Assembly: GCA_014871385.1 (NCBI GenBank)
Contig: CM026430.1
Span: 5,934,630-5,998,629, forward strand
Length of the DNA: 64,000 nucleotides
Direction: 5' to 3'
DNA from: Ceratodon purpureus
Taxonomy: Eukaryota > Streptophyta > Bryopsida > Pseudoditrichales > Ditrichaceae
Below, piece after piece: positions 12,782-52,944 of the stretch; position 1 is the first letter of the stretch, and each line of letters opens with the position of its first letter. The position numbers were made by a program, and so were the translations under genes. The notes below the pieces were generated by a model. It was not told the DNA's origin, searched no databases, and saw only the letters and a list, made by a program, of their open reading frames with translations.

Positions 12782-13153
12782 ACAGGGGCAGAGATTTGCC
12801 CCTCCCCTCCCACCCATAGCCTGGCCTCCGAGCCACCGCTTGATGGGGAAAATAGACAGATCCACGAGGTTCTTCCTACTCCGAGGCGCGGTCAAACGTT
12901 ATCGCAAATCGTCTGGGACTCTCGGCCCTTTGCACCAGCCCTGAATTTGCACCCTGCAGCCTGGTCTGGAATCTGATTTAGTTCTAGAGTTAACAGCTAT
13001 CAGTCTGTTTCCATCGCATCAGTTCTGCGGAGGTGGGTTCAGGGGAATTTTGTGCAGTGAGCCTGGATGTGGTTTGATGGGTTTGGGGGTTAATGCGATG
13101 AGAAATGGGGAGGGATTGGTGGGTGTGTGATCGGATCAGGATCAGGGGGAGCT

Positions 13154-14996: not shown

Positions 14997-15270
14997 CTTG
15001 GTAAGAAATGCCAAGTTTCCTTGAGTGCATTTATAAAGCACTTACCAAGCCTACACCGTACCTCAGTTATACTAACAATTGGAATCCGACAGCCAAGCGA
15101 TTGGACAAGCAGGTCCAGTCTGCAATAAAATCCTAAATCTGATTACCGGTAGTCATTTCGTCCTGTCACACCAGGTTGTGAATGATATCTCCGTAAAACC
15201 AACTGACCGTATATTTACAACAATTTCATTCCACATTACAACAAATCCACTTGAAACAAAACTTTCGCAT
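14997..15270 (+). repeat. Direct repeat R2 (uninterrupted copy)
   Basis: Same orientation and nearly identical to R1 (10652-10886 plus 12194-12227). It supplies the pre-insertion reference for the nested elements in R1. No reading frame is conserved, so it is a non-coding repeat or duplicated flank. Confidence 0.8.
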
Positions 15271-24648: not shown

Positions 24649-25808
24649 CTTGACGAACAAAAACCAACCTCAACTAACAACTCCCACAGCTCTCAACCAA
24701 CGATGAGTAACTCAACGTGATCCTCCTCGCAAAGTCTCGAGCTGGAGACTGATCGAATCGTACTAGTAAAGTCGAGTCCTCATCTGCACACTAGCTACCA
24801 CGGACTTACTGCAACTACGTTAACTGATCACTCAAAGTCAAGCGAGACAGATCACTAGCTGAAAGATGCAATGCTGGGATGTTAGGTAGTTGTGATACTG
24901 GGAAGGATCCGTCTGGCCCACTTATATAGTGGAGGTAAAGGAACTGTGCCTCGGATTGATTCAGCTCAAAGTCGAAGAAGCTGTGGATTGATTCAACCAT
25001 GACTAAAATTGCCGCGTTTTGATGTAACTGTGCCACAGAGCGGTTCAGATGAGATGCGGTTCAAGCGATCAACAGGGCAATGGATTTGACTCTACGGACA
25101 ACTACCGATTACCGACTACAGTGCTTGACCCCCGAAAGCAGGGCATGGAATCCGCGGTGGCAGACTTTACGACTTTATTCTACTCCAGAATATTTCACAC
25201 GAGTAACAAGGCTGTGTTAATACTTTATCACCTGGCATGGCACTATTATTTATCGAGGATTTTGTGGACATTAGTCGAGGTGTTGCATCAAAAAGTCCCT
25301 TGGATTGCTTGTGGATTGGGCCAGATGCGAGTGGGTATGTGTTACTAACTTAGCCTTGCTCTTGTGAGTGGATATAAACACATACCATATATGTTTTTGA
25401 CACAAACTTGAGGAAGAACCTTTCTTCGGTTTGAAGACGGACCCAAAGCGAGGGCTATCCCAGGTGGGCGAGGCTATCAACTTGTCCACCACGGCCTCTA
25501 CCATGATTCCGCACGAGTTGTTAGTAGCTTGTAGACGTCGGTTGTGAAGCTGTGTGTCCAACAGTTGATTCTAAGGAAATCATTTGACTAAAATTGTTCA
25601 TTGACTGTTAGTTGCCTTGTGGAAGAAGAATAAAGACTAATCAGAATTATTATAAAATTTAAAACTTTGGTCTAAATGGAGGTGAACTGACAAGTTGAGT
25701 TGTTACCGCTTATCCTAAACCTGTTATAGATCGCAATGATGTTTTGAATGTAGTGCTGTGAATTGAACGTAGTTAAGCGAAGTTGCAAGCTAGTGACATT
25801 TGGGGAAT
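24649..25808. other. Promoter-side spacer up to transposon block 1
   Basis: This is the 5' flank of the 489-aa membrane protein gene. No gene is supported. The last 16 bases (25793-25808, GTGACATTTGGGGAAT) recur with one change at 41348-41363, on the far side of block 1. Confidence 0.4.
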
Positions 25809-25851
25809 GCTAGGACATGAGCGATGAGCCGTGAGCCATGTGCCGTGAGCG
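25809..25851 (+). repeat. Left terminal inverted repeat of block 1
   Basis: Starts GCTAGGACATGAGCGATGAG and continues in ATGAGCC-like steps. It matches the reverse complement of 41299-41340 at about 38 of 42 positions. Confidence 0.7.
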
Positions 25852-26140
25852 AGATTCCATGAGCCGTGAGCGGATGAATTACTATATTTAGTATGTGCAT
25901 TTCATCCATCAATGAGGATGAACTCATCTAAAACGAATGAATAATTTGCAAATGAACAAAGCATACTTCAAATGAAATGATGATTGGTACTCCAATGTGT
26001 CAAATTAAATCATTAGGATTCGAAAGCTCAGGTTAAAAAAAAAAACGGTTAATGAAACCTCTAGAGCCACTTGCAGGCTATGGCCAGGGAATTTAGGTTC
26101 AAACACAGATTTCTGGATGGTAGTCAGTTAGAGTTTACAA

Positions 26141-26229
26141 GAGTTTGTGGTCTAAGATCATACCAAATCTGAGGTGAAGCAAGTGAGAGTTTGTGGTCTA
26201 AGATACCAAATTTGAGGTGAGGCAAGTGA
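26141..26229 (+). repeat. Two-copy tandem repeat of about 45 bp
   Basis: GAGTTTGTGGTCTAAGAT and the following ACCAAATYTGAGGTGARGCAA occur twice in a row (26141-26186 and 26187-26229), just upstream of the coiled-coil gene. Confidence 0.8.
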
Positions 26230-26252
26230 ATCTGTAGATTGCGAGTAATGGA

Positions 26253-26445
26253 GAGGAGTAAAGTGGAGAGAGGGAAGGGGCCGTGGTTTGCATTGGAGGT
26301 TTTTTTACCCAACTGGACGCAGGATCCTTCAAGAGATTGCAACCATGTGCAAAATGATGAGTTGGTAAGAATGTTTGATGAGAGACAGAAGAAGAAAGGA
26401 TATTACTATCCAAGAGCTAAGTCTGATAGAGTTAACAACGTGTAG
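26253..26445 (+). pseudogene. Coding-like fragment with Trp-rich start
   Basis: An open frame from the ATG at 26251 encodes MERSKVERGKGPWFALEVF, then LPNWTQD and a basic stretch (ERQKKKGYYYPRAKSDR), ending at a TAG. It is in a different frame from the next gene, and no splice pair joins them cleanly. The spaced tryptophans and basic C-terminus recall a Myb/SANT-like half domain, so it may be a broken 5' exon of the following gene (inference). Confidence 0.35.
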
Positions 26446-26480
26446 AGTAATTGTATCCTGCCATTTACTAGTGTAGTAAG

Positions 26481-27168
26481 ATGCCAAAAAATGAGTGTAT
26501 CTCAGAGACTTTAGCTAGAGCTATAATGTCCGAGGTTTGCCATGGCCATCCAATGAATTGGGCCCAGTACGCTTCGGAGAGATGGAGAGTAAAAAGAAAT
26601 AGAAAAAAGAAGGAGTCAATGATAAAGTATGGAGGTAAAGAGTCCAAAAATTCCTACTATCAACTAGTAAAGGCAAAAGTTGAGGGAGAGTTAGCAAAAT
26701 CAGAACTACAACATAGCGAGATAGATGCCGAATATAGCGATCGACATGTTTTCATTAGTATGCTGATGTCATCGCCGAAGAATCCAGCCAGTGGAGCTGA
26801 GGAAGAGCGAATCAAGATATGGATATCTAGGCTACGAGGACAGTTGCAAGTTTCGGAGGGTAATCTAAAAAATATTGTGGAGAGTGCACAAGACGTGGAA
26901 GAAAATATCAAGGAGGAAGACAAAATTGTAAATCTGAAGTATAGGATTAAGGGAAATGAGATAGCCTTCATTGGTACGAAAGGTGAGATATTTATAGCCT
27001 TGATATGTTTCGTTTGCATTACCTCTACTGCTTCTAACTGCATTTGCAACTTTAACAAGACATATGAATGTAGACTTTGAATCTTCAGAATATCACTTTG
27101 AAACGCAAACATCTCAAGGTCAACTGCCCAAGAGGAAGCGCAAGCAAGCATCTGAGCTCAGACATTGA
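26481..27168 (+). CDS. Coiled-coil protein with nuclear localisation signal
   Basis: Two exons, 26481-26982 and 27089-27168, with a GTGAGA...TTCAG intron of 106 bp joined in phase 1, give 193 aa. A basic region (RWRVKRNRKKKE, about 36-47) is followed by acidic and coiled-coil-like segments (EERIKIWISRLRGQLQV, VEENIKEEDKI). The short second exon adds a classic monopartite NLS (PKRKRKQ). It lies just inside the left end of block 1 in the same orientation as the SWIM transposase, so it may be an accessory DNA-binding protein of the element (inference). No family recognised. Confidence 0.5.
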
Positions 27169-28128
27169 AGGCGTAATTTTTTCCAAAAGAGGGAGGAAGT
27201 AAAAAATAAACAAGATGAGCTAGATCCAATTACTGGTGAGTATAAAATTCCATCTGATTGAGATTATTCAGTTTAGTAGGATAGCCATTCTTGAAACCAA
27301 CTCAGATATTAAAATGCGGCACGACATGGTAAAATATTTTTCAATTTTGCAAGTTAAGTTGTTCCAAATTCAACATCTAAGACTGTCACGAAGTTTAGAA
27401 TTAGTAAGTGCGATTTCACACTAACCAGTAGTTGAAATAAATTGTATCTACCACTATGTTACCATATTATTTTATAACATGTAAGCCTCTCATGTGCAGG
27501 TTGGTTTAATTGTTAATGTCCGTCATTTGAATCTACGAGTATATGTGGCGGGAATTGAGAATTACTAAAGTGATTGCAATTGAACACGGGCAATGAATCA
27601 ATTTGAAAATGAGATTCACTTATGTAACAAAGTGTTCAATTGTGTCCGCAGGTGAAAATTACGTCAGATCATGGAGTATAATTTGGGTTCGCTCCAAATG
27701 TTGGATTATGTCTAAGTCAGATCATTTAGTACAATTTTGTTTCGCCTAGAGTGTTGGATTCTCTCTGAGCTTCAGCTATTATTTGTGAACTTGTGTTGAA
27801 CATAGTAATCATATTCGGATCATATTCAGCAAATCACAACTTCGGAAGTATCTACTTAGAAAAGTGCACTTCATGTCCTACCAACTAGACTCTCCAAAGT
27901 ATAGTGCTAAACATAATGAGTTTGTTAGACATTTTGCTTGACGATAACTTAAATATTGATCAAGTAAATATTAGGAATGAATTGTAGAGGAATGTGGCAT
28001 TCTGTAACGAACGGTATTCGTGGCTCTAATGTAAATTCCAAATGGTTGAGTAATGGGAGGTTTGCAATAATCAACGTCCGTGTGAACTTACGTGGACTGG
28101 CCATATGTGGGTCCCAATATCCTTCGTT

Positions 28129-28435
28129 TTGTGCCGAACAGGTCCTCCATGGGGCTTTGAGAAATTCATGCAAATGCACTCAAAGGCATAGTCTGTACTG
28201 AACAAGGGAGGTTAGAAAATACAAAATACCCTGTTCTGTGCCGAACAGCACTCGAAGGCATAGTCTGTACCGAACAAGGGAGGTCAGAAAATACAAAATA
28301 CCCTGTTCTGTGCCGAACAGGTCCTTCATGGGGCTTTGAGAAATGCAGGCAAATGCACTTGATGGCATAGTCTGTACCGAACAAGGGAGGTCAAAAAAAT
28401 CAAAATACCATGTTCTGTGCCGATCACCACATTTG
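28129..28435. repeat. Tandem repeat carrying the GTTCTGTGCCGAACAG motif
   Basis: Two full units and one partial unit. Each holds GGCATAGTCTGTAC, AACAAGGGAGGT and the near-palindrome GTTCTGTGCCGAACAG; the full units also hold CATGGGGCTTTGAGAAAT. The same short palindrome recurs at 33.4-39.2 kb. Confidence 0.8.
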
Positions 28436-28699
28436 GACCAAAATGTTTTCAGAACACAATCTACATTCTGCGAACCTGCATCAATCATAAATTAAGCTCA
28501 TCATAGGGTGTTCCTACCGAACTGCTTCAAGGGTCTGTAATTTATTTCCAAATATTTTACTGTTATTAGACAGTACTCTTAACTACCAACATATAATATG
28601 TTTTGATCGAATAGCAAGACAGTCTGTTGATTCCACACTTGAAAAAACGAATCAATAATCATTTTAAAATATCCATCACATTAGACTTTGTAAAATGGG

Positions 28700-30770
28700 G
28701 TGATTTCAGAACGTGTATTGCTGAATATATAAAGTGTGGTATAAAGTAAACTAATGGATATAAATAGTACCAAGGTTTTTATTTAGTTTCTTTGCTTAAT
28801 ATGTTGAAATGTAAATAAGTATACCAAGTTCGCAACTCAAAATATTTTGAATATAATAATTGAAAAATGCACTTTTGGTGAAAAGATAAAAATAGAGATT
28901 AATCTATACATTTATATAGTTTGAAGTTTTAAAAATTAATGTATAGAGCATATAATAGGCCATATATAAGTATGTATATATATATATATAAATATATGAA
29001 TATACATTTAAATACAAATAAATGTGAACATATGCAAAGCATCCAAGAGATATATATTAAATGAAAAATATTAAATGAAAAATATTAAATGAAATAAGAA
29101 ATAAACATATTTAAAATCTAATAATTTCAAACTTGATTACTTTTTTATTTAAAATAAATAAATAAGACAACATATATTTAAAGAATAAACATTGTATTTA
29201 GGAAGAAAATTACATACATTGCATTAATGAGATTTATATTACAACTCTAGTTAAGTCAATGGCTTTTGTAATAATTAAGGTAGCATTCCCACTTTCAACT
29301 CATGCCACAATTCACAAAAAAATTACATTTGGTAACAAACGGCTAACTTGGTTGATGGATTGAAAATTCTAAAATTTAGAAATTGGCCTTGCAATATAGG
29401 ACCCTAATAGTTGTAGTTGAATATTTATATAAACATTCATGTTTTATATATAAAAAAAAATTGGAATGTAAATTAAAACGGTTCACGAATTTCCTAATTA
29501 TATATTACAAATGTATTAATATTTCGTGATTATATATTAACAGACATTTATATGTATTAAAAGAAGAATCACGAAATATAAATACATTTGTAATATATTC
29601 CAATCAATGATAAAATTAATTAATAAGTATATCCAAATATCGCATAATTTAATGTATTTAATATAAATATAGTAACTTTATTCATAAACATAAAATTAAA
29701 TTTTATCATAATATCCATATACATAAATTTATAAACAAATAATTTACATATAGTTTAATGTATGTAAATTAATGTTTATGAATATGTATATATACATATA
29801 TATATATTCATTTATTTAAACATTTCTATTCATGTGTATTTATTATTTAAATATAGATACTATCATACATTTACATAAATATCTTATTGTATATACGTAT
29901 TTTAAATCTATATATGTACACATGTGAATATAAATTTATATTTGATAAAATATAAAATAAAATTATATTTATATGCATATAAATATAAATATATACCATA
30001 GTATGAGATGTGTTTTAATTCATATAGATAAATATGCATATATACTACTCCTATATACATGCATATATGATTGTAAGTACATGTACATATAAATACATCC
30101 ATGCATGTGTTTAAATATTCTTATTTATACATTTTGCTTAAGTACATATATATTTTTAGATAACTTCTAACAAGTGCTCCATATTTACATATTTCCTAGT
30201 TTGTATATATCCATATTTGTATAATAGCGACGTTGAACTTATATAAAAAACTCATATATGATATGATTTCACGTGTGTTCATATATATTTAAGAAAATCA
30301 AATATGCATGGTATTATAAAAAATACTATTTGATTTGAGTCTTTATCAAATGTCTAAAAATAAATGACCAATTGGTACTATGAAATTTATATTTATATTT
30401 GTAGAGGTATATGTGTGTTTTATATGCACTTTGATTTTTAAGGATGTGCAAATGTTTTTACATTTATTAATATTGTATACCTACTCAAATATATTTGTGT
30501 ATTTCTATATTAAACATTTGAAATGCACAATCTATATAAAATTCTAAATTTCTGTATAAGTGGTTTTGAAAAGGATTTTATTTTTTGGGTGTAATATATA
30601 TATATATATATATATAATGCATATACTATATATAATATATTGACTATATATATAATATCTTGATTGTATATATATACTATATATATAATATAATAAATAT
30701 ATAGTATATATATAGTATAAATACATATAATATATATATACTATTCAAAATTTACAATAATAGCAATATT
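28700..30770. other. 2-kb AT-rich block with TA microsatellites
   Basis: Almost pure A/T, with alternating TA runs at about 28975-28990, 29775-29805 and 30594-30735 and many ATATAAAT-type words. Open frames here are short and composition-driven. There is no gene. Such a block could be an easily melted or matrix-attachment-type segment, or a decayed spacer inside the element. Confidence 0.7.
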
Positions 30771-31294
30771 TTATTTAGATATGTTTAAACTTATCAGATA
30801 ATTATTATCAATACAGCTTAATCAATATCAGAAGTCTTAACCATTTACACATGATTACTTGTTCAGAATCTCAATGGTATTTTTTTCTTAAATCATCAAA
30901 GGCTTCAGCAAAGTTTCAATTCGTTTACTACATGTTCAAATGATATCAACTTCTGTGTATCTTACTCGAACTTGTAGTAATTACTAAACCATTGGGTGAT
31001 TTGTGTCGAATTCTGCAACTTACTGTGATAAAGTTTGCTGCCGGTCTGGTCATCATCCAAAGTATTTTCCAGCGTATCAGCTCCTCCAATTTGAAGTGAT
31101 TATAATCAGATTAGGACGGTGGACATGAACTTTCTAATCATTATCGCAAATCATTAATCAACTTAATGTACAAAATACGAGGTCGACAATGACGAAAACT
31201 CAATGCTCAATATCCAGTGTTTACTTATAGGTTCAGTTGAACGAGGATACAAAAACCGGCAAGGTTGTTAATGCGCCATCAAAGCTAATAGAAT

Positions 31295-33625
31295 TTAGGG
31301 GCTCAAGAGCGAAGCATCCATACCCCTTCCATTGTGTGGTTTTGGAGATTCAGCTGGTTTAGCCATAGGCATCAAGACTGTGTGGATCACATGGTAATCC
31401 TCCTCAATTCCAAAGAAGTGGCGACCTGATGCGCGGCAGGTACGAAGCGAAGCACCTGTAGATGAGCTAAGATCAACCACAATGTCTCCTTCTTTGGAAC
31501 ACATATCTATGAGTGTTTGAAAGAACACGTCTGACTTCTCGTGTGGACCTTGCATCGGTTTTTGGTCAGCTCCAAGTCTGGGTGCTTGAACATCATTTCT
31601 CGAGCTCAAAAATCTCAATGGATCCTCTAGAGTATTGGCTAGCAAACGGTCTGAATTTAATTTCAAAAGGCTTTGGAATTTGGTCCCAATTCGGTTTTCC
31701 TTGGGCGCAGTCGGTCTTCAGCAGCAAGATCGCCAAGAACATGTATGTCTACATATTTGAAACAAATGTCAATTAGATTAAATTGGACAACCTCTTCTAG
31801 TTCAACTTCCCTAACACAATCACACGCTAAATGCATTTAAAATTAACAAACCCAAAGAGAGTGAATAGCCATACCATCATGTCATCGTAGAGAGGATATG
31901 TGGGGGGTTCAAAGTGAGGATGTATGAGGAGTTAACCACTAACAATCCTTAAAACCCAAAATGGGTTTCTGCAATTTTGGGCATCCTAGATGGGGAGGTT
32001 AAAAGCAATTTTTTTTTTTCAACATTTTTATTAGATGCTCCATTTATAGTAAGGTCCATGTGATAAAAATTTTGAAGCCAAATTCCAATTTTAGAACATT
32101 CATCTAGAAATTTTAGGTTTCAAGTCCAAAACGGGCCGTCTAAAATTAGGTCTTTTTAAAAAAACAAAAATTGAAATATGTTCATAACCAAATCACTACT
32201 CAAATTCCATAGTGACCCAAGTCAAAAAGTTTACCAATTTTACAAGGGCAGCCTCCAAAACTTAAAAAAACAAGCTTCAAAGTTTTTAGTACTTTTTGAA
32301 TTTTTGCTTTAAAAATTTGTCAGAATTCGAGATTTTTGAATCTTTTAATTTTATTTTGTCCTGAAAATCTCAAATTTATAAAGGTACCTACTCACCTTTC
32401 ACTTTTTCTTTAGCTCACAAATTGTTTTTGTAATGCATGTTTTTCTATTTTGTCAATTTTATACCTTCTTATAGAAAATAATTTGCATGAAGGTCTAAAA
32501 AATGTTTTGAGTCCCTAAAATTTTGCATAAGCATACCTAACGTAGTTAGCTACATGGAAAAAAATGTGACCAAAATGTTTGAAGTAATAATCATCAAGTC
32601 TCCCTTTGGCCCATTTGCACCATGCCTCTCGGCCAAGGCCCAATAAAACATGTGCTGAAACTTTGAACACTATGATCTCACTAATGAAAAACATCCAACG
32701 GTTGAAATTTGGATCGATTCTTCCAAGTAGGATCAGGTACAAGATCTTACGGTTGAAATTTCAAAAAAAGATAAAAAATTTGTTTCATATCCTCGGGAGG
32801 GCATGGTGGTAAAAAATCGCAGTTTTGAGGATTCAAGCTCTTAAAAACACAAGGAAATTTAGGGTTAAGGACAAGGCGCCCATCGGGTTCATGCACATTG
32901 TCCTTCAACTCTTGGCCTTCCGGATCACTCTGGCCACCATTGTCTTGTTCATTGTTGGACTCTTGCTCTTGAGACCCGTCCATACCTGAGTCCCCATTTG
33001 AATAGGTATCCTCGTTTGGGACTGATCAAACACAACAGGTGAAACCAATTAGATTCTTTTCTATGTGGGATAAAACATTTGAGACAATTCCAAATGCACA
33101 GCTCAATGGCGTTCGATACAGAACATATTAATTTGGAAAAGAAACACATTCGGGTTTGAATAAGCTATTTACCTAGGATACCAGTTGGAATATTACTCAT
33201 CTCAAGATGCTCGATATGGTCGCCATCGTTGAAGTTCTCGTCTTCTGCTTGCAAGCCTGTAATACAAGACAATCATATAAGGTTTATAATCATCAATGAT
33301 AATCGAGGCAATGTATTCATATTAATGCAAACATTGAAATATTTTACCTTCCCCTTGTGTCATTTGTGGAATGTTGTCGCAATTGTTGTCTTCTACGCCC
33401 ATTACCTGGTGGTCAACCCCTGTGACAAAAATGATAAAACATTGAAGTCATGACGTTCGTTTGTTACAGAACGTTAGTAAGCATCACAATTGAATTGTAT
33501 CAAAAAATTAGTGGTTTGCACAAAAAGTCTTGACTCTTACCAAAGTTTGAGTTCGTCTGACCGTGTGAGGCAGAGGCATCCATCATTTCCCCTAAACCTT
33601 CTTGCTGCAGCATCAAATCTGTTCT
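31295..33625 (-). pseudogene. DNA methyltransferase-like multi-exon pseudogene
   Basis: Minus-strand exons 33625-33541, 33419-33348, 33256-33173 and 33021 onward join with correct phases and GT-AG borders, encoding an acidic, Gln/Asn-rich region (LMLQQEGLGEMMDASASHG, VPNEDTYSNGDSG). A TTAA-flanked element at 31932-32868 interrupts the fourth exon after GRLV. The last part (31295-31666) reads QKPMQGPHEKSDVFFQTLID, then GDIVVDLSSSTGASL and SGRHFFGIEEDY. This is the order QKP, GD(I/V)V(V/L)D with the AdoMet loop, then GR.F.GIE.D seen at the C-terminus of N4-cytosine/N6-adenine DNA methyltransferases. The usual DPFxGSGTT loop has become DLSSSTGAS. A frameshift near 31605 separates it from the preceding coding stretch (GKPNWDQIPKPFEIKFRPFA). 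The catalytic (S/D/N)PP(Y) motif is not securely identified. Not functional as it stands. Confidence 0.55.
31932..32868. mobile_element. TTAA-flanked piggyBac-like element inserted in an exon
   Basis: TTAA borders both ends (31932-31935 and 32865-32868). In reverse complement it starts TTAACCCTAAATTTCC. It is homologous in inverted orientation to 63290-64000; for example both carry GGAGGCTGCCCTT, the TTTTTTTCCATGTAG block and AAGATCTTACGGTTG. It has no transposase frame. It lies within the fourth exon of the methyltransferase-like gene. Confidence 0.6.
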
Positions 33626-33914
33626 CTGCAAATACCAAGTTCTTTATTATTAGTGACAGTCAATTGCTCTGAATGCACACGTTCGGTGCCGAACATAGAT
33701 AAGGCCACAAATGATCAAACGCAATCCTTGACTTCCACGTAGATAACAATCATTGAATTAGTTGTATTTGTTACAGAACACGGCATAGAACACGGCATAG
33801 ACTACAAACTACTTGCCTGCACAAATCAATGTATGGTCATAAACATGGTGAACAATTTATTGATCAAAAGCACGAGTTCGGCACAGAACGCATGTCAAGC
33901 AAGCAATTTATATG

Positions 33915-34490
33915 CATTGTGTAAAACAGAATCAATAAATTTAGATAAAATTGGATCCCCAATGGGCGTTCTGTACAGAACACATGATTCTAGTCAATGT
34001 ACATGAAACCCAATGCCAAACAAATCAATAAATTCAGATCAAATTGGATCCCCAATGGGCGTTCTGCACAGAACACATGATTCTAGTCAATGTACATGAA
34101 ACCCAATGCCAAACAAATCAATAAATTCAGATCAAATTGGATCCCCAATAGGCGTTCTGCACAAAACACATGATTCTAGTCAATAAACATGAAACCCAAT
34201 GCCAAAAAAATCAATAAATTCAGATCAAATTGGATCCCCAATGGGCGTTCTGCACAGAACACATGATTCTAGTCAATAAACATGAAACCCAATGCCAAAA
34301 AAATCAGTAAATTTAGATAAAATTGGATCCCCAATGGGCGTTCTGCACAGAACACATGATTCTAGTCAATAAACATGAAACCCAATGCCAAAAAAATCAG
34401 TAAATTCAGATCAAATTGGATCTCCAATAGGCGTTCTGCACAGAACACATGATTCTAGTCAATATACACGAAATCCAACGTTAAAATTGC
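33915..34490. repeat. 93-bp tandem array, about six units
   Basis: The block GGGCGTTCTGCACAGAACAC recurs exactly every 93 bp (GCGTTCTG at 33966, 34059, 34152, 34245, 34338 and 34431). Each unit also carries AAATTGGATCCCCAAT and ACATGAAACCCAATGCC. Every unit centres on the palindrome GTTCTGYACAGAAC. Units are nearly identical, suggesting recent amplification. Too long and too uniform for CRISPR, with no spacers. Confidence 0.92.
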
Positions 34491-35238
34491 AAAAACTAGA
34501 ATCAACACAAATTAAAACGGGATTACGCATTCTGCAAAGAATAAGGCCCAAATACTCACTTTGAACATAGATGTATAGAGAACTAGACATCGTTAGCACA
34601 ATTAATACAATGTAAAAATTCAGGTCAAAGTGTTAATCCATCAAAAAATGGATCATTAATGGGTGATTGGTAAAAAAACTTTAATTATACTAAAACCCTA
34701 ACCAAGGCTGAAATTGAAATGTGTGTCAATCATCATCAGTAATGAAAGGACAAATTGCATCCAATAATGATGTTCGTTACAGAATGCTTTAATTTTTTGT
34801 AATCTAGACATGGACCATGCAACTTCAAAAATGTGCAAATCAAGAAAAAAAAAAGAAATGGTAGGAGTTTGGCGTCGAGCTTTGGCCGAATTCACACTTT
34901 GAGAAGCGGTCTGACTACCTATGAAATGGATTCAGAGAATCCTTGATTGTCAGAATTGCTGCTATATACCATGTTCGTTAAAGAACACCTAATGCCAGTG
35001 ACTTTCAAAATGGGAAAAGAGAGTGCTTGAAACATTTCAATCCAATCACCAATACTTTTAAACTGACCCTACCTTGACTAAATGAGCAAAGTTCAAATAC
35101 ACTTAACATAATTCCATTTCATCAATATCAGTGAAGCACTTCAAAAACCTGAATGAATTAAACCAAGAACTCACTAAATATGCAAAGTCATGTACTTCCA
35201 CTTCAAGATTAAGAGACTATGATCAAGGTCTCTACCAT

Positions 35239-36750
35239 CATTCTGTGCAGAACGACCAACTACTAGCCGCTTTGTCCTCATGGTCCTGACTTCATAAAAG
35301 GGCATTCTGTACAGAATGCCATACAAGTTTTTAATTTTCAAAGACGTCTTACCTGTAGAATTCTAGTCACCTTCTAGAAGCCCACACAAATTTGGGGTTC
35401 TGACATATCTTTCTACCTGGCATCACAAACTAAGCTCTATTATCAAACTAATGTTTTATATATCCAACACTATATAATGGCCTCGACCATCTCCATACTT
35501 CCTCATTCTAAGTTCCACAATGGTTTCCAAAGTTGTTTCCTTCCGTCTCATGTCTTCGTCTGTTCCCTTTGTACTTCATGTAGATGCTGATGGATTTGTA
35601 GTGGTCGATAAGAAATCTTTGTCATAAAGTTTCAACTGAAAGAGTCATCTTTGATTTTTGAGAAAGAGGAGTTGGATAGGAATGGAGCTGTTGTACGAAC
35701 TATATATCAGAAGCCTCATGTTGTGAATGGCAGGCCCACCTATAGGATTACATCATGAAACTATACAATCATTGGTGGCCTACAATCACCACATTTGTCA
35801 CAGTCGTTTACTATGACTCCCCGACCAATGTCATATCCAATGCGTCATCTGAAGAGTAGATTGAAAAAGTATTATCATATATTATATAACATTCTGGGTA
35901 ACTGTATTCATTAGCAACTACTTTCATCATTGTAAAGGATGAGACCACAGAAGACGCTGTCTCAGTGGCTTTCATTTTAAGGTCCACTAGACCATTCTGT
36001 GCAGAACGACCACCTATTACCCACTTTGTGTCGAGACTTAACGCATGAGAAAAGGGCATACTGTACAGAATGCCCATGGAGTCCGTGCTTTTCCTGAATA
36101 AATAGGTTCTTCATATTTTAGAATTGTAGCCGCCTTCTACCAACCAAATTTAATACGAGGATCTGTCAGTTCTATATATCAGTCATTCTGACCAAACCTC
36201 TAAATATGAATCTGTTCATTATTGGAAGTCCCTAACACTACATAGTTCTCAGGACCATCTCCACATTCAATCATTCGAAGTATCACAATGGCTTCAACAG
36301 TTGTTTCTTTCCATCTTTTATCTTCGTCTGTTCCCTTTGTACTCCATGTTGACGATGATGGATATGTTGTTGTTGATGCGAGAATAATGTGTCTTAGATT
36401 TCAATTGCTACCGTCATCATTGATTGTTGAGAAAGAAGAGTTTGATAGTGCCGGATCTGTGGTACGAACTGTGTATCAGAAGGCTAAACTTGTAGATGGC
36501 AGGACCACCTATAGAGTCTGTGCAGGTTCCTATACCATCATTGGTGGTTATGAGGCCTATGACATGTCCACAGTCTTCCACTCTTACTCCTCGCTCACGT
36601 CTAGGTCGTACTAGGCGCACTCCACTTTATTATAGACTGCCTTCAGTGATTGAAACTCTTGAGAATTCCATTCATATTGTAAGTTCTGACGATGAAGAGG
36701 ATGCATTTTGAGCTCCATCTTCTTTAAAGGGTGGTAGAGCGAAGAAAGAG
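35239..36750 (+). repeat. Tandem duplication, unit about 0.76 kb
   Basis: The segment starting CATTCTGTGCAGAACGACC at 35239 recurs from 35993. Each unit holds a second palindrome (TACAGAATGCC), an upstream region and a start codon (35520 and 36288) with similar coding sequence (TVVSFHLLSSSVPFVLHVD in the second copy). The first coding copy has early stops, so the second is the likely 5' end of the transposase gene. Confidence 0.75.
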
Positions 36751-39700
36751 ATTAGCGACAGTCAGAAGATTTGGACCTCTCCGTCTTCGGATAGCTTCAA
36801 TGATGACTCCTTTGTGGGTGCAGATACATTGTTTAAGTCACTTGTTTCCGAAACTCCATCATCGGACACAGGGCGATCAAATTCCAAGGACTGCGCCGGA
36901 AGAGAGACTCCTTCAACTAACACAACTCATTCGGTTTCTACGGAGGGCGCTATTCCGAATACCCCCTCTTTTGATCGAATTCCTTTGGTTTCGAGCGTTG
37001 ATGTTAACGATGGGACTGGAATTGCTGCTACCCCAAATTCTACCTCTACGGGTTACACTAACAGTCTTTCTTCCGATTCGGAGAGATCCAACTCGGTGGC
37101 AGCGACACCTGTCACTGAGTGTGATGAAAAGGGCCCCACTACTGCACTTCTGTCGGAGACCTCACTGTCGGCATTCCTCAGCTCTACGATTCCATTGTGG
37201 TGCTTGAGAATCAGCTGATGTCAAAGAATGATTTGAAGCCAGCGGATCTCTCATCGTTTTCACATCACGAAGTGAAGTATCTTCCTGTCACGTTTGATGG
37301 GAATGCAATTTTTGAATTACCCAATTTACTGGCGGTTAAAGAAGGAGGAGCTTGATTGTTTGATGGCATGGATCGTAGAAGTGACGGTCATGCTTGGACT
37401 AAGACTGCGACGACGAATATTTCTGATCCTAAGTCTCAGTTATCATTCAAGTATGTAAAGTGTCTTAGACATTTGCGGTGTTTGAATAACATTTGCCCTC
37501 ACATTGAACGGACTGAAGATTACAACGACCTCTACTGGGAAGGGTCTACTCATGAGGTTCTTACGCCAGGCTCTAACCCCAAAATGCCTAAAAAGTTGTC
37601 TCTTGTTTGTCGTTTCTGTAAGATTGCTTTGTCCTGTTTGAAATTGTGCTCCTGTAAAATGTATTACATTGTATCTAAGAACCCTGCCATGTCAAGAGCG
37701 GCCGTTCATTTTGGCAACCACAATCACCCAGTTGCGACTGGGGAATGTAGAGAGGCATTAGATTTGATTCAAGATGAAATCTTGAATCAAGTGTCCTAGA
37801 CACCGAATGCCAAGGTTAGTGCCATAGGAATAGGTGTTGGTCGAGAGTTGCTTTTGAAGGGCCTTGTAGATGAGAGTTGTGAAGGAAAGAAGTTAGCGGA
37901 GGATGAACTGAAACAGATTTTTGATAAGTTGGCAAAGCTTAGCACTCCTAGCATTCGGTATATGATTGCTGAGGCAAGGAGTTTCTGTGGTCAAGGGGGA
38001 TACATTGACAACATCTTGAAGTTGAAGAAGTGATCGACTTATGACTACATTCAGGACAGCGTTTTTCCTTGGCAAGGCAAAGACTTGGTCTACCTATTTA
38101 AGATGTCAACGTGCGGGGCTGGAAGTGGAGTTGATCTCGTTATGAGAATACAACCAGGAAGGGACTTGGAGAACGAATGGGTGATGATCGACCACGTCAA
38201 GAGAGTGAAGGAGTGGTCGACACTTGGCATCCACATTTACGATCCAGACTACCGCAAAGTTATAACCATCGCTGTTTGCGATATGTAGTCGGAAACAGCT
38301 GAGGCCCAGGAAAGAATGTGGTTATCCATGTTGAATACGCTCGAGCAGCATGGCGTTACTAACGTCAATATCAAAGGATTTATGGCACATTCTGCCCAGG
38401 CAAACTTGAACGTTGTACGAACAATTTTTGGATCAGGGAACCCGAAGGACAAGATGGAGGGGAAGGAACAAACGTGCCAGTTTCTTTGGTCGATGGCCCT
38501 CGACCGTCATACGAAACAACTCAGAAAACCAGAACTCTAACAAGTCCATCTGAAGCTTTGTCATGATTACCGGAAGTCAAGATCAAAGTCGGACGCAGAT
38601 GCTGCTTTGGCTTCTATCAAGGCGTAGTGGTTTTCGTCAGGTGCAGTTGCCGAAGGGTCGTTGAAGGAGGTCTGTGACTGAATCAACTTCTGGCATTTCA
38701 GATTTTACCAGTGGGGATCTCACGTCTCAGAGGTAAATAATCACAATATCTTTAGTATAACATTTTTTTCTTCTGTTTTCTTTGACCTAAAATTTGACGT
38801 TTGTTACAGAACGCCCAGTTCTCTTGCCCTAATTTGACCCGTTCGGTACAGAACGACCTCTATCCATGCCCTAATTTTTAAGGTTTGGTACAGAACGACT
38901 AGCTGCCTTGCCCTAAGTTTCGTCGTTTGGCACGGAACAACCTTCGTTCCAGACTTGAAATCTATATTTGATGAAATTACACTTTTTGGTAAATTAGCTT
39001 GGTCCATGCAGTTCTTTACAGAATGACTCACTTGCCCTTGATTTAAAGAAAAAACGGGAAATTCTATGCATTATTGATCGTTTTAAATTTCTTGGTCATT
39101 TCGCAAGGTCTATGCTGTTCGGTACCGAACGACGTATTCGATGCTGATTTGAACTTTGCTTCATTTATAATGTGTCATCCAACTTGTTTTGTTTTAAAAT
39201 CATTTGACTTGCTTTAGGTTGTTCGGTACAGAACCACATTGTTGCCGCTGAATCAATGGTTGCACGATAAATTATTTACTGTTGTTATTTTCTTTAAATG
39301 CCATATTTGTAGATGTCTGAAAGCGTAAAATATGCATTTAGAATCTTGTACTGGATGTTTGTATACTTGTTTAAATTTAACAACTTCTTTGTTTCCCAAA
39401 ATTGTAATGCACGCAGTTCCTATCTCTTGAAGAAGAAGCATCCATGCCGACTTGTAATTTGTCGGAGACTGTGGATAACAAGTGGCTGCAAACATCAGGC
39501 AACAATATGGTTGACCTCTATGACGCTACGCTTGACAATTATTGCACAGCGGCTTTACAGTCGATTCAATTCCACAACTTTCTCAAGGAGCACCTTGGAG
39601 GATCTGGGCCTTGTAGAAATGTCCTGAAGTTGCGTGCAGCGACTCGAAACGGTAATCCAGTGAAAGTAGCTCAGATTGTTGGTCAGATCTCTGTCGATGC

Positions 39701-40904
39701 TCCTTTGAATTCTCGAGTTCCTCACCTCGAAGGCGAGAGTATTTTTGGATCAGCAAAGCGTAAGTTGGACCTTCCTCCTGGCAATGACGATGATTCTCAT
39801 CGGCATGATTGAGTCAATTTCTCAATTCCAAAATTGGGAAAAAAGTCAACACCAGGGGCGACACGTGGCTTGAAGCGATCTCCGAAGACATCCGAAGTGG
39901 AATCGGTTATTGTGCCACCGGTTGTACCAGTGGTTACTCGAAACAACTTGCCAATCCGGGAGTCCCCATGTACTAATCCTTTGGAATGGCGCATTGAGCG
40001 TATTTTGCCACAATGCAAGGAACAATGTAGGGGTTACAATGGTGATGGCAAGAGGTGCAACGCTCGCATTGCCAAGTACAGGCGACCCACTGCTGCTCCA
40101 ACGTTTCCTGGAATTCAGATGAAGTTTAAATCCAATGACACGGAACAGAAGCAGTTCTAGTTTTGTCCCACTAACCTTGAGGCATGTGTGATGGGTGGTC
40201 GTTCTAAATACATCATGCATTATGCCGATGTCCCAGAGATCTGGCCAGTCATGACGGGTACTAATTTGACTCAGATTGAGATAGATGGTTTAGAATCTGC
40301 TATTTTTAAGCTGGATGAGAGATTTGTAAGCCACGTCGATGAGACCAACGGTTTCACAGATGAAGGTCATGCATCGACAATGCTTGGAGGACCCTCAGTT
40401 GATCGCTTCAAATAGAGTGATCTAATTTATTCTGAGATCAATGTCAACCATGTTCTAATGCCCCCCAAGTCATCTGGGGATTATAGGCCCACTATGCGAG
40501 AGGGCAAGAAATTCAAGAATGTTGCGGAGCCATCAACTGAGCATATTGCCAAATTTAACAGATCCAAGACAATCGAGTGTTCCTTACTGATGGCGAAAAA
40601 GATCCCTCATCCAGGTTATAGATACGTTTTCACTGTCCACACTCCTGGATCTATTGACAAGAACCAGCTAAACGAAGTGACTATCGGTGATTTTCCAGCA
40701 TGCACTTGTCTTGACTTCGTCACAATGAAGACTAGTGCCCTTGGTCGTGGCTAGAAGAAATGGATCCTCTACAAGCATCTTTATTTCTGCCTTCAGAAGT
40801 TCATGGATTGTACTGTGGAGGATAAGTTCATTCATCGCCCTGCTTGGACGTTCAATGAAGTCAGTATGTTGACAGATAAAGCTGATTGGTCTGCTTACAC
40901 TTAG
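36288..40904 (+). pseudogene. SWIM-finger transposase pseudogene (Mutator-like)
   Basis: From 37200 to 38732 and from 39417 to 40904 one reading frame is kept across a phase-0 GT-AG intron (38733-39416), broken only by 12 in-frame stops (7 TAG, 4 TGA, 1 TAA). Upstream there are one-base frame changes near 36550 and 37150. Domains: a Ser/Thr-rich N-terminus; a Cys/His cluster (CRFCKIALSCLKLCSCK with FGNHNHPV, about 37600-37740) like the FLYWCH/GCM-type finger of Mutator transposases; a DDE-like core (HIYDPDYRKVITIAVCDM, KGFMAHSAQAN, EGKEQTC); and a SWIM finger (FPACTCLDF then YKHLYF, about 40690-40790). The second core Asp reads His, and the SWIM Cys before KH reads Tyr. Inactive now; once probably the mobilising enzyme of block 1. 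Confidence 0.7.
38733..39416 (+). other. Intron of the transposase gene, rich in palindromes
   Basis: The intron joins HVSE to FLSLEEEASMP in phase 0. Its 684 bp contain at least seven copies of GTTCGGTACAGAACGACC-type sequence (about 38805-39235). The exons next to it have none. Confidence 0.7.
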
Positions 40905-41298
40905 GATTTTCAGCTTTGGCGGTTTTTGTTAGATATTTCAACAAGGGTGCACTAGAAGCAATAGAATACTATAGCTCTGGATGTTCAAGTAGAGTACTTT
41001 GATTACTTTCTTTTAGCATTCTAGTATATATGGGCAATTTGCATTGCTTGGTTTGATTGGATTTGTGCCAATTAAATAAGCACCCCCTATTTGCTTCCTA
41101 ATTTCATATTAATATATCTATTTACTTTTTGTCCCTTACTCATTTCACTTAGTTTCACTTTCACTATTATACATTTATCATCCAGTTGGAGATGAAAGTC
41201 ATCAATGACAAATATTTCGTTCATTGTCATCCAGAGTTTACATCCGGTAAGAAAACATGAAAATTACTTAAATTAGAAAAATTACATGAGCCATGAGC

Positions 41299-41340
41299 GC
41301 TCATGGCTCATGGCTCATGGCTCATCGCTCATGTCATAGC
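41299..41340 (-). repeat. Right terminal inverted repeat of block 1
   Basis: Reverse complement starts GCTATGACATGAGCGATGAG, matching the left end. Just inside is the perfect 16-bp palindrome CCATGAGCGCTCATGG (41291-41306). Confidence 0.7.
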
Positions 41341-42679
41341 CTCCCTCGTGACATTTGAGGAATATGACTTAGTCTGAAGTATTAGTGTTTCCAAAGTCTA
41401 TTTACCTGAACACACTGGTGACTGTTTACCTCCATTCACCTAAAGTTCTTGAAAGCTAAACAGTGTGTCACAGAAAGCAAACAAGACCGAAGTCCACATT
41501 TGTGAAAAAATCTGCATATTTGACAGATTTTACCAAATAGTGTACAGTTTTTTGTCTGCTACAGTATCTCTACCTGTACAGTAAATGTACGGAAGTACTT
41601 ACCGTGGTCTAGACTGTGAAGTAGCTGAACAGTGTGGGGAATCTCTTCAAAATCGAGTACTGTAGTCGAGACAATTGTGGAATGAGTTCCCATTGATTCA
41701 TACAAAAAATCAACTTGCAAAATTGTATTGTACATGTGTTTAGCCCCTAAAATTCTTTGACCGTTTCTCATCAAAAACATTTTAGAACTGCCATTAACAA
41801 TGAGTAAAATTACAAAATAAAGATAAAAATAAATAGCTTTCTTTGCATCTCCAACCACATGATATTGTCTAAAATTACTAAAATATTATTAAAAGGAAAG
41901 CATTAAATTTGACAACACAGACTGTAAAATCATAGAGTTTGAAGGTAAAAATTTGTTTTTCTTCATCCTAGCCATAATGGATCACAAGATTTTTTTACTT
42001 CTATTGGTATCAATGTTTTGCAATACTAAAAGTCTAAGTTTTATATTGGTATGGTGTGCATGATGTTAATTTTTTGTATAACAAATTTTAGATGTGGTCA
42101 AGGAGTAGTGTTGTGAGAAAAATTGTAAAAGTGACATTATTCATGATATTGCCATTACAAATCTTATTTTATTTTTATATTGAATTCTTATAGAAAATGA
42201 ATTAGTACATTAAAGAAAAGGTTTATATCTATTTCTGAAATAAAAGAAAAAAAAGGGAAGAAAAAATAACAAGGTCTTTACTTTTTATGTAATGAAGAGT
42301 AATTGTTTTTGCGTCATAACTAGAAAGGTTGGAAAAACTTTAAATCTTTCTACTATACACCAAGTTTTTTTTGGGCAATCTCAGATACTATCACATTAAT
42401 TACTTAAACAACAAATATCAAAGGTAATAAAGGGATGTAATAAAGGGATGTAGCAAAAATTTGAAGTTGTTGTTTATTAAAATAAAAATGATGTATGTGA
42501 AAGTTGTTTTTTTTCAAAAAGATCAGATTTGAAAAACTTTCATTTGCAAGAGGTTATTGTAATTTTCTCCACTTACAAAACATTTCAAAAGATCAGACTC
42601 AACAAGTGACTTTGTATGAACTTGCACAGAATCCCAATTCTCAATACAACAAACAATAGCTCTTTAGAAGTAAAATATA
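41341..42679. other. Spacer between the two transposon blocks
   Basis: AT-rich, with no supported gene. Around 41725-41800 a stretch (CCCCTAAAATTCTTTGACCG) resembles the start of the TTAA element at 10884, so an older, degraded copy may lie here. Confidence 0.4.
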
Positions 42680-49260: not shown

Positions 49261-49475
49261 CTATTGAAGAATTGGACAAGCGTAAGGGTTTGTCTAAGGG
49301 AAGCATGTATCTTATTTACTCATTTATAGAAAATGAATAAAAATGAAATTTGTGATGAATTGTTATTAGGTTGAATTTAAATAAATTTTACTATATGTTT
49401 CATTAAAATCTCACATTCAGTGGCTGCTTCTTTTTCATATGTGCCACAGTCTCCTCTAAAGATTCAGACTACTCT

Positions 49476-52400
49476 ATGGAAGTATATACCAGATGGGAAT
49501 GGGACGATGTTGATGTTGCCTTTCCTTCATCAGAAGGATTTACAAGCGGTACAGATGGTCAATATGAGCACATTAATCAATCGATGAAGCAACAACAAAC
49601 TACCATTATTAATGGGGTCATTCTTCAAAACATTTATGGTATCACGGTTGCCAAAGGAAGCAGAGGTACTATGGGCGTGGGTGATATATTAAATGATAAG
49701 CCACTTTCTATAGATGATGAAGTGGTTTATATTCAAAGAGTTCTAATTCCTGAAACTTGTGTTCATGAATTGCATCTTCAAACTATGGAAGAATGCCTTC
49801 ATAGGTATATGAGATGGCCGCAATCTCAAATCAAGGATCTTGAGATATCTATCCATCTAAATGTACCATCAACCAGCAACTACTATGGAAGTCAATATAT
49901 CACCTTTGATAAATACTCACGGCTCCCACGATTCTCGTTGATCATCTTTTGAACATACTGTGGAAGGATTGCCTACTTCTGATCCTCGACGTCCATATAT
50001 ACACAAGATTTGCCAGCAAAGAAGACCAAAAGGCCCTCGTATGAAAGGACTATCAAGATCAGAGAAAGTGACTTTACATGCAGTACAAGAAGCGAAGGCC
50101 AGAAAAGTTTGTACCCAAAACTATCTTCAAAATATCGATGATCACGATATTTTATCACTACGGTATCAATCAGTGAGCATGACAAAGTATAAAGACCGAG
50201 CACGTTGGATTCTAAATTGTCTTCGAAGCTTCATGGTTTCGTCTTCAAGTGCACAATCTGAAATTAAATTTGAAACAAAGGTGGTCGGATGTAAAGTATG
50301 TCATGCTTGTTTTGCTAAAGCAAGTGGATATTACCTTACAAGATTGAACGAGATAATATCAAGTATTCGAGATCAAGATGTAGTCAATGTTTCTCATGGA
50401 AACATTGGAAGAAGGAAGGAAGGGACTCATGAGAGCATGGCTCGGTCTATATTTGAGTCATATATTTAATTGTTTGGTGAGCCTCAATCTCATCGACAGG
50501 CAATCCAAAATTTTGATGGTTTGAAAGTTGAAGTGATTTGCCTACCCATGAATGTGCGCCGCCATGAAGTATAGACATGGATAAATAACTCTTTGCAACG
50601 TATGGGCGAAGCCAAGATAGGTTTGTCTACTTTCAAGAAGATGTGGAAAGCAGAATTTACAAACGTACATGTTCCATCTAAATCACGGTTTTCAAAATGC
50701 CAAGTATGTTGGGAGTACAAAGAAAGTATCAAATCCGTACCAAACGAAGCTATGAAGGCTATTATAACCCAAGAATATCACATACACATAAAATTAACTA
50801 TGGAGAAACCAAAAGACTATACTCGTGCAAGACAAGCTGCGGTTGAAAGTCCAAATGATGTTTTGAATATCATTATAGATGGTATGGACCAGAACACCAC
50901 GTATATGCCTAGATTCAAGTAGACTGTGAAAAGCATAGAGTCTCGATACGTAAAAACTCACTTATGTGGAGTACTTGTTCACGGGATAGGTTTATATTGT
51001 AATGTATGGGTGGATTCCCATCACAAACATGACAACAATCAAGTAGTTACATCCATCATGAAAGTTTTACAAGATGTAAAACAAAGACGTGGACAATATC
51101 CTCCTATTCTATGCATTCAAGTAGACAATTGTGGAAGAGAAAACAAGAATGTAGACATTCTTGGCCTCTGTGCTACATTAGTAGCCCTTGGATTTTTTAA
51201 GGAAATCTCGTTGTCTTCATGATAGTTGGCCATACTCATGAAGACATTGATCAACGCTTTAGTTTTATATCTTCAGCCTTAAAGCGACAAGATATTGACT
51301 CCTTGAAAGAATTGTTAGAAATCATTCGAACCCGCCCTACTTTTACAAAACCATTTATTTCTGCCGAACATCTTGATGACCATATTCGTTATTTTGAGAC
51401 AATTTCAGAACTTTGAGACCTTTTGCCTACAATTTCAGCAATTGTTTTGAGACAATTTGAACATTTTTTTTACTTTCTAATTATAGATTATCCTTGACTC
51501 GAGGATAATCTTCCCATATATAGTAAAAAAATTTGTCATAAATATAGAATCAATTAGGAAATCAATGAAGAATCTATAGTTAAGCATTAAATTGAGACTA
51601 TGAAAAGTCTCAATTTAACAAATATGGTGTTCTTGAATATATTCAAGACTGGAAGAAATTTATTACACTGTATATGCCTGAAGATCCATTTGTTGGTATT
51701 AGCCAACGAGGCAACCTCATCATTTCAGGTTTTACATGCAAAATAACAAACCGCATGTTCAAAAAAAGGATTATACAAGGTCTCCTTCATGGAAATCTGA
51801 CAATGGGTCACACATTTGTCTTCAAGCAATACCCGATGTCCAACTGAAACCAATATTGGCACCTATTTTCAATCATGATGAAAGGGAAGTTAAGGCTCTT
51901 GACAAGTTTATTTCCTTAAAGGAGCGGTATATTGCAAGACACATAAATGTGGAAAAGAATCTTCAAGCTATTGAAGAAGCTAATTGGCTCATTTCATACT
52001 TGAAAGATTTTCCAGAAAGCAATCACTCTGAAGCAGCACGTGCACCATTTTGGCCAATAATAAACAATATGGAGCTCGCGAATGCTCCTTTGCCTGAAAG
52101 GTCAACATTGTCTAGTACTGCAATTGATGATGTTCTTCAATCACTTCCCCTAGTGATGGTAACATCTTTTTTTGGACCTCGATCCGAAATGCCAAGAGGA
52201 CATCGTGTACGTGGAAATAGATCTAATATACGAGGTCAAGGAAGAGGATGTCAAGAAAGGGATGAATTTGGAACAGAAGAAATAGAAAGTGGTCAACTTG
52301 GAGATGGAGGACAAGAAATGGGTGGACAAGGAAGAGGGCGGGGAGCGCCTGGGCTAAAGCGAGGGCGGGGAAGAGGGCATGGACGAGGACGATGGCACGA

Positions 52401-52944
52401 GCGAGGACGTGGACGACGACCACCTACTCAAGGAAATCTAGCAATTCCCAATGCTATTCTTGTCGATCAATTTCCGTCATTTGATCCACACCAAGATGTG
52501 AAAATAGAGATAATTGTTGGATTGGAGACTAAGACCGACAATCGGGAGAAAGGCATTCTTTTTTTTGTTGCAAAAGTAGTATCATAAAACCAACAAGCTA
52601 CTGAAGATGGAACTGCTGAGGTTCTATGGTATCAACCCAAAATGCCTATTGGACTATATGATGAAGAAGGACATTTCCACAATCAATATACAAATTGTAT
52701 ACATCAAGGATGGAAACCTTCTCGAGAGGAGAATACTTGGATTCCTATTGACTAAATATTTACAGAATGGTATAACACATGGTATAACACAGTTGGAACA
52801 CGTACTTTAACTAGTGTACGTGGTATAAGAACTGAGAAAGAATTGAAAATTCCCAACAACGAAATGTTTCATTTCCAATTTCATTTGACTTCTATAGAAA
52901 ATAGGACATTAGTATTGTGTGATTATATATCTTCTTGTTATTAG
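49476..52944 (+). pseudogene. DUF7869-type transposase-like pseudogene
   Basis: Coding sequence starts at an ATG (49476, MEVYTRWEWDDVDVAFPSS). It shifts frame near 49945, then runs in one frame to about 51210 with stops at 50467, 50572 and 50920. Recognisable blocks: CKVCHACFAKASGYY (Cys motif), NIIIDGMDQNTTYMPRF, THLCGVLVHGIGLYCNVWVD, CIQVDNCGRENKN and VGHTHEDIDQRFS, the series I know from plant and fungal DUF7869 proteins of transposons. A one-base deletion near 51208 (TTGTCTTCATG) precedes VGHTHEDID. A stretch around 51400-51700 is scrambled by short repeats. The 3' part (51736-52587) has a Gly/Arg-rich RGRGRG tract and is followed by a terminal block (EVLWYQPKMPIGLYDEEGHF). Inactive. Confidence 0.65.

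Follow-up and report, generated by a model that had tools for sequence, protein, structure and literature searches.

The window analysed here is a 64,000-nucleotide (nt) stretch of the moss Ceratodon purpureus (G000:C10:5934630-5998629; positions without a contig name refer to the window), and it contains a 15,546-bp element at 25802-41347 that is adjoined at both ends by an exact 9-bp direct repeat. Between its ends lie two broken exons of a transposase, a fragment of a DNA methyltransferase (MTase)-like gene, a truncated coiled-coil/RING-like gene, and the 12-bp palindrome TTCKGYRCMGAA, which, as the original prediction described it, is dispersed over the element (15 sites) and absent from the other 48.4 kb of the window. 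We name the transposase-side end X and the opposite end Y (Table 1). Searches of the genome (362,488,568 bases in 151 contigs) show that the element is a defective copy of a giant terminal-inverted-repeat (TIR) DNA transposon family with full-size members of 23-30 kb.

Table 1. Features of the window element (SAM, S-adenosylmethionine; aa, amino acids).
Feature	Position	Strand	Evidence
Whole element, deletion derivative of the 23-30 kb family	25802..41347	.	Ends and exact 9-bp duplication; ~98% identical copy C13:13502499-13518489 with its own duplication
Left target-site duplication GTGACATTT	25793..25801	+	
Right target-site duplication GTGACATTT	41348..41356	+	
Y-type terminus GGGGAATGCTAGGACATGAGC..., coiled-coil gene side	25802..25851	+	
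X-type terminus GAGGGAGGCTATGACATGAGC... (read on minus strand), transposase side	41298..41347	-	
Truncated coiled-coil/RING-like gene remnant	26245..27002	+	tblastn with a full-size copy's 414-aa frame: 64-71% identity, in-frame stops
Palindromic sites TTCKGYRCMGAA at 28234, 28306	28234..28317	.	
MTase-like gene remnant, most of last exon (SAM-binding side)	31298..31666	-	
Seven palindromic sites at 33682, 33877, 33969, 34062, 34248, 34341, 34434	33682..34445	.	Five in a 93-bp tandem array, 33930-34478
Palindromic sites at 35241, 35305, 35995, upstream of transposase	35241..36006	.	
Partial duplicate of transposase N-terminal coding region	35499..35824	+	Nearby DNA repeat pair D3
Transposase exon 1, stops and frame shift	36270..38759	+	87% identity to full-size copy, residues 306-831
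Palindromic sites at 38842, 39118, 39222, between transposase exons 1 and 2	38842..39233	.	
Transposase exon 2, SWIM-like region, stops	39411..40901	+	89% identity over 497 aa

The element had been placed at 25809-41340, with ends matching in inverted orientation over about 42 bp. The inverted ends stand, with a best local alignment of 39/43 identical positions that includes the exact 17-mer, but the boundaries move outward to those given above when the ends are read together with the duplication; 25804-25851 and 41298-41345 are 88% complementary over 48 nt. Part of this match is an array of the heptamer GCTCATG, present at both ends, and it is this array that could favor a composite reading, in which separate insertions happen to lie between two arrays of similar heptamers. 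Beyond the array, however, the outermost ends are GGGGAATGCTAGGAC... and GAGGGAGGCTATGAC..., and both abut the direct repeat GTGACATTT. Because these non-array ends abut an exact duplication and both end types recur and pair genome-wide, the end match is more than chance, and a low-complexity artefact is ruled out by the duplications and the pairing. The composite is likewise refuted, its probability being close to nil, by the exact duplication in the window, by a near-identical copy elsewhere with a duplication of its own, and by the exact duplications in 24/28 pairs of ends compared with 0/756 mispaired flanks (see below). The proposal that the interval is a single transposon is thus borne out.

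The window copy is dead. Its transposase, predicted as a SWIM-finger pseudogene, is indeed a pseudogene with two broken exons, but the SWIM assignment is weaker: even in an intact relative PF04434 scores 15.0 bits, under the 19.6 cut-off, and a SWIM-like CxC...CxH region is visible by eye. The MTase remnant alone scores 25.2 bits for PF01555, under the 26.7 cut-off, and the five other exons of the gene were not detected in the window element. With the last-exon remnant only, the window copy no longer has a working MTase gene, and the proposal of a transposon that brings its own DNA-modifying enzyme is to that extent not supported. The coiled-coil gene is present as predicted, although not intact; one open piece of the truncated remnant is a 202-aa open reading frame (ORF) at 26472-27077. 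The element also contains an AT-rich stretch at 29001-31000 (~20% G+C, long AT repeats) and, just upstream of the MTase remnant, one copy of a dispersed repeat (32173-32789) whose second, inverted copy lies at 63370-63989 (71-80% alike).

A second copy, at C13:13502499-13518489, is 97.5-99.3% identical to the window copy over three main blocks. The MTase gene is truncated identically in both and at least nine of their transposase stops are shared, and the C13 copy has its own 10-bp duplication and 488-bp flanks unlike those of the window. The ratio of nonsynonymous to synonymous substitutions (dN/dS) between them is 0.52-1.00, on few changes (dS 0.009-0.031). The shared lesions, together with the separate duplication and flanks, indicate that the defects came first and the element moved afterwards. 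The window copy was very probably mobilised in trans, presumably by the transposase of intact copies.

Allowing up to three mismatches over 35 bases, the X end is found at 81 places in the genome and the Y end at 35, with no match to the reversed patterns. Twenty-eight of the 35 Y ends face an X end convergently, at spacings of 9.6 to 90.5 kb. The flanks of all 28 pairs were examined: an exact duplication of 9-11 bp abuts the ends in 24 (12 of 9 bp, 11 of 10 bp, and one of 11 bp) and a duplication with one mismatch in the remaining four, whereas mispaired flanks gave none of 8 bp or more in 756 combinations. A sister subfamily, with the Y end GGGGAATGCTAGAGCATGAGC, occupies at least 41 places among the matches listed, and 34 of these pair with an X end; ten pairs were fetched, of which eight have exact duplications, one has a duplication with one mismatch, and one has none (control 0/90). 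The two subfamilies are ~45% diverged in the MTase catalytic exon, and their pairs together use 62 of the 81 X ends. The host genome therefore holds other copies with the same termini, and those that we read enclose related genes and not unrelated sequence. The element is a unit, and its family is real, large, and recently mobile. Eight pairs of ends lie 45 to 90 kb apart (C1:23738526, C2:17159778, C7:7706448, C8:7114912, C6:95991101, C12:10114688, C13:5342244, and C6:17129947; six exact duplications, two with one mismatch), a spacing likely caused by nested insertions. The C2:17159778 pair encloses a second, distant MTase-like match.

The elements read from end to end, 26.8-27.9 kb long, are four: A (C3:2164662), B (C4:7494669), C (C5:6600002), and D (C1:16281849). 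For 11 further elements of 24-29 kb and for one of 31 kb, the middle part was read. The whole order in the four copies is X end, transposase (minus strand), MTase-like gene (plus strand, divergent from the transposase), coiled-coil/RING-like gene (minus strand), and Y end, and the transposase-MTase arrangement is seen genome-wide. In copy C the transposase has two minus-strand exons with open frames of 831 and 515 aa, and the coiled-coil/RING-like frame, on the minus strand near the Y end, has 414 aa. Among A-D, dN/dS is 0.08-0.23 for the transposase and 0.20-0.29 for the coiled-coil/RING-like gene. Between the same elements the transposase dS is low (0.03-0.18) and the MTase-gene dS high (0.28 to saturation), so modules have probably been exchanged among elements.

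We scored 144 of 2114 transposase candidates and 150 of 801 MTase candidates. Fifty-six of the scored transposase matches are close (at least 67%), and 45 of these have an MTase exon divergent within 35 kb; none has one in convergent or same-strand orientation, and shifted controls gave 0-1. In the scored list, 13 of the 16 short elements show no match to the transposase core, two (the window and C13 copies) have a broken core, and one, of 17.8 kb, has an open core and is without an MTase exon. A second large transposase clade comprises at least 88 scored matches at 52-55% identity, many of them equal in score, with open frames of ~750-830 aa, and probably represents another family of this kind with recent activity; among the matches listed, 4/88 have a distant MTase-like match divergent 8-11 kb away.

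The MTase-like gene of copy C consists of six plus-strand exons that join at GT/AG junctions into an open frame of 948 aa; an additional upstream exon is likely, and the start is not fixed. Its last two exons match PF01555 (N6_N4_Mtase) at 31.3 bits (cut-off 26.7) over profile positions 2-217 of 221. Outside matches include phage DNA methyltransferases (phrog_6952, E 9.7e-8), and among 20 of 307 matches listed the phage records are ~21-42% identical. Matches of the N-terminal exon to Fab chains were dismissed as chance. An N-terminal ParB/sulfiredoxin fold, suggested by eye from DGNHRLVAW, found no sequence support in Pfam, NCBIfam, or the PDB.

All six exons, some truncated at the limits of the fetched sequence, occur in 15/15 paired elements of 24-29 kb, and premature stops are found in three copies: A (exon 4), L036 (exons 3 and 4), and L037 (exon 3). 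The catalytic exon (at least 50% identity) is present in 20/22 first-subfamily pairs of at least 20 kb and 0/6 below that size, and in 24/24 sister-subfamily pairs from 22.8 kb upwards and 0/10 below 18 kb, that is, in 44/46 paired elements of at least 20 kb and 0/16 shorter. Three short copies keep a small remnant of it, and the window copy and its C13 sister keep the last-exon remnant. Among the scored candidates there are 56 catalytic-exon matches at this identity, a count that leaves out three pieces of less than 50 aa, two of them from copies already counted. An X end of matching orientation precedes 49 of the 56, in 40 cases at a distance of 12-17 kb, and no oppositely oriented X end occurs within 120 kb of any. 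The MTase-like gene thus belongs to the element family, in keeping with the original prediction, and we regard a giant-TIR family with an MTase-like core gene as virtually certain.

Across the 15 full-size copies the median dN/dS per exon is 0.049, 0.038, 0.052, 0.150, 0.037, and 0.074, and for the whole gene dN/dS is 0.06-0.07 in the five of six A-D pairs with computable dS. The gene is under strong purifying selection across full-size copies and is almost certainly functional for the element. Gene-fragment capture is described as frequent in Mutator-like elements (PMC13317346), and the MTase-like gene might by that precedent be passively captured host cargo in the style of a Pack-MULE. This alternative is very improbable and largely refuted by the strong purifying selection, the fixed position and orientation, and the presence in 44/46 large elements of the two subfamilies. 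The Pack-MULE class itself was rejected, as full-size copies carry a transposase and conserve the MTase-like gene as part of their core.

Premature stops occur in 9 of the 56 catalytic-exon matches, and seven of these nine are on G000:C6, a contig of 110.5 Mb that is possibly a non-recombining sex chromosome. In elements C3:2164662 and C1:16281849, a diverged minus-strand remnant of exons 3 and 4, ~20 kb from the X end, is a trace of a second MTase-gene copy. The scored candidates also include ~90 more distant MTase-like matches (32-39% identity) across chromosomes, many with open frames of 300-600 aa, of which we read L080 (G000:C4:21058900-21060800, 1-1901) and L081 (G000:C9:3039700-3041200, 1-1501).

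The palindrome has 23, 18, 17, and 19 sites in A, B, C, and D and 8-18 sites in each of the five shorter elements read, the window element included, compared with an expectation of at most 0.03 per element in first-order Markov shuffles; the enrichment is partly circular because the motif was defined on these same elements. None of the 77 sites in A-D falls in mapped exons, though these make up 29-30% of the length. Genome-wide the palindrome occurs at 2776 places versus 503 for the reversed pattern, and among 50 distinct places listed, 22 of the first 25 on C1 are inside element C1:819806-846592, which was not used in defining the motif. A tandem array at C1:9822493-9824231, outside paired elements, contains 15 sites, mostly at 108-bp spacing, with a 54% transposase match ~11 kb away at C1:9811111.

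In copy C5:6600002 the palindromes begin ~2.4 kb from the X end and cease ~4 kb from the Y end. This placement bears on the possibility that the MTase-like protein belongs to the machinery of transposition, either an obligatory second subunit or an accessory factor, and unrelated to silencing. The two genes do occur mostly together and divergently (45/56 close transposase matches), and a degenerate catalytic motif would fit a structural DNA-binding role. However, the palindromes are not at the termini, and the 17.8-kb element, which may or may not be mobile, has an open transposase core but no MTase exon. We consider a machinery role rather unlikely.

Nearly all full-size members have a preserved MTase-like gene and many palindromes, which suggests that the element makes its own DNA-recognising protein. 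The explanation that best accounts for the whole, to which we give a probability of about 0.55, is a giant Mutator-like family with a trans-acting transposase and an MTase-like self-recognising regulator. According to this model, the transposase would cut at the heptamer-rich ends and reinsert with a staggered cut of 9-10 bp, and would act in trans, such that broken copies like the one in the window could still move. The MTase-like protein would be a regulator, encoded by the element, that binds DNA sequence-specifically and perhaps also modifies it. By recognising the palindromes of its own element it would hold the element's chromatin or expression in a permissive state, a role filled in VANDAL elements by VANC, a protein of another kind. 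Its most likely function is to recognise DNA at these palindromes. That the protein acts through the palindromes is a tentative proposal, slightly short of even odds, and that it does so by methylating DNA is somewhat unlikely; marking of element DNA or anti-silencing is something we infer. The fullest version of the model is a self-recognition system in which a protein resembling a prokaryotic-type modification enzyme reads, and perhaps methylates (N4-methylcytosine, 4mC, or N6-methyladenine, 6mA), a palindromic tag repeated ~20 times, shielding the whole family, broken copies included, from host silencing; we consider it unlikely.

Several observations weigh against the model of a Mutator-like family with a self-recognising regulator. 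Seven of the 35 first-subfamily and 7 of the 41 sister-subfamily Y ends are unpaired, two Y ends have, in addition, an X end within 120 kb that is not convergent, and 2 of the 22 large first-subfamily elements (C11:3977143 and C8:7114912) are without the catalytic exon. No Pfam MULE domain is found in the transposase: a search with its 265-aa core returned no families at E up to 10. The dN/dS medians are Nei-Gojobori pair counts based on 44-63 of 105 pairs per exon, after removal of pairs whose dS was saturated or no higher than 0.05 or that shared fewer than 30 codons. At least 3 of the first 25 palindrome places on C1 are outside elements, and nothing ties the palindromes to the MTase-like protein in particular; the transposase or the coiled-coil protein may bind them. 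Catalytic motif IV of the MTase-like protein is DTPF in 10/15 copies and DQPF in 5/15, not (D/N/S)PP(Y/F/W), and the glycine-rich motif I segment is altered in the 15 copies, to DLSASTGAS or close to it; in the two more distant copies read (L080 and L081) motif IV is DVPE or DFPD. The protein is thus a candidate enzyme at most, with a conserved MTase domain and a non-canonical catalytic motif.

These motifs also bear on the alternative that the protein works as an active N4-cytosine or N6-adenine DNA methyltransferase and marks the DNA of its own element. The PF01555 match over nearly the full profile fits such an enzyme, as do the palindromes, since many prokaryotic modification enzymes recognise palindromic sites. 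Moreover, 4mC is reported in Marchantia sperm (PMC8566409), and a bacterial-type enzyme, N4CMT, acts on transposons in bdelloid rotifers (PMC8885841). The known amino-MTases listed in the latter source have SPPY, DPPY, NPPY, or DPPW, and the departure of motif IV together with the altered motif I in 15/15 copies makes an active enzyme unlikely.

As for class, we are confident that the family is Mutator-like. It has short TIRs and duplications of 9-11 bp, similar to the 8-11 bp of Mutator-like elements (MULEs; PMC6446971), and may share with them the SWIM-like CxC...CxH region seen by eye; a CxxH motif behind a candidate Asp in the transposase core is likewise visible by eye only. As no MULE profile matched the transposase, the family is Mutator-like in behaviour and not a proven member. 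The moss element also differs from MULEs in its size and in carrying an MTase-like gene. Accessory domains tabulated in the same MULE survey include PMD, DUF, and FAR1, plus SET in an oomycete group, and the word methyltransferase does not occur in its main text.

A close parallel in organisation is the VANDAL/VANC system of Arabidopsis, which, as described in PMC5735166, combines a transposase with an element-encoded accessory gene and has dense short motifs, often in tandem repeats, in introns and other non-coding parts. The 17-23 palindromes in each of the four full elements resemble these motifs, with genome-wide specificity partly seen. However, that source speaks of transposable elements of several kilobases, compared with 23-30 kb for the moss elements, the moss motif is palindromic, and anti-silencing would be only a proposed role in the moss element. 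To our knowledge, VANC is not an MTase-type protein.

Phage PF01555 DNA methyltransferases, which are among the outside matches, are intronless genes, and they have canonical catalytic motifs. Transposable elements with a DNA-MTase gene under purifying selection are described from dinoflagellates and charophytes, but there the carriers are retrotransposons and the enzymes of the C5 type, or else DIRS elements carry adenine MTases (PMC5890265). The moss element is a DNA transposon with TIRs, and its protein has a PF01555-type domain in which the catalytic motif is altered. Among eukaryotic amino-MTases, N4CMT of bdelloids and DN4MT of Marchantia are described as host-genome genes, and N4CMT has the catalytic motif SPPY (PMC8885841, PMC8566409). 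In the openly accessible literature searched, we found no DNA transposon with such an MTase-like gene and no giant moss element of this kind. Thus, while the transposon-encoded DNA methyltransferases described in PMC5890265 sit in retrotransposons, here a large DNA transposon carries a strongly conserved MTase-like core gene and dispersed palindromes of its own. If the model is correct, bryophytes, in which 4mC is reported for Marchantia (PMC8566409), could harbour an independent answer to silencing, the problem solved by VANC. The family also shows that DNA transposons as large as 23-30 kb (with matching duplications up to 90 kb apart) move as units, the dead copies apparently in trans.

In the window as a whole, no tRNA was found and nothing matched Rfam at the gathering score, and the genes are plant-like, including a mitochondrial carrier with EF hands and trihelix-type Myb domains. 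The mitochondrial-carrier gene (13094-14593) lies between the members of a direct repeat pair (10667-10886 and 15015-15238; pieces 94-100% identical, ~4.35 kb apart). Trihelix-like Myb_DNA-bind_4 regions are found in ORFs 1326-2789 (minus strand) and 6189-9335 (plus strand), the second below the curated cut-off in an ORF that also has a protein-kinase domain. Finally, the ORFs at 49407-52584, which include a DUF7869 match (50923-51219, 88.5 bits), may represent another mobile element.

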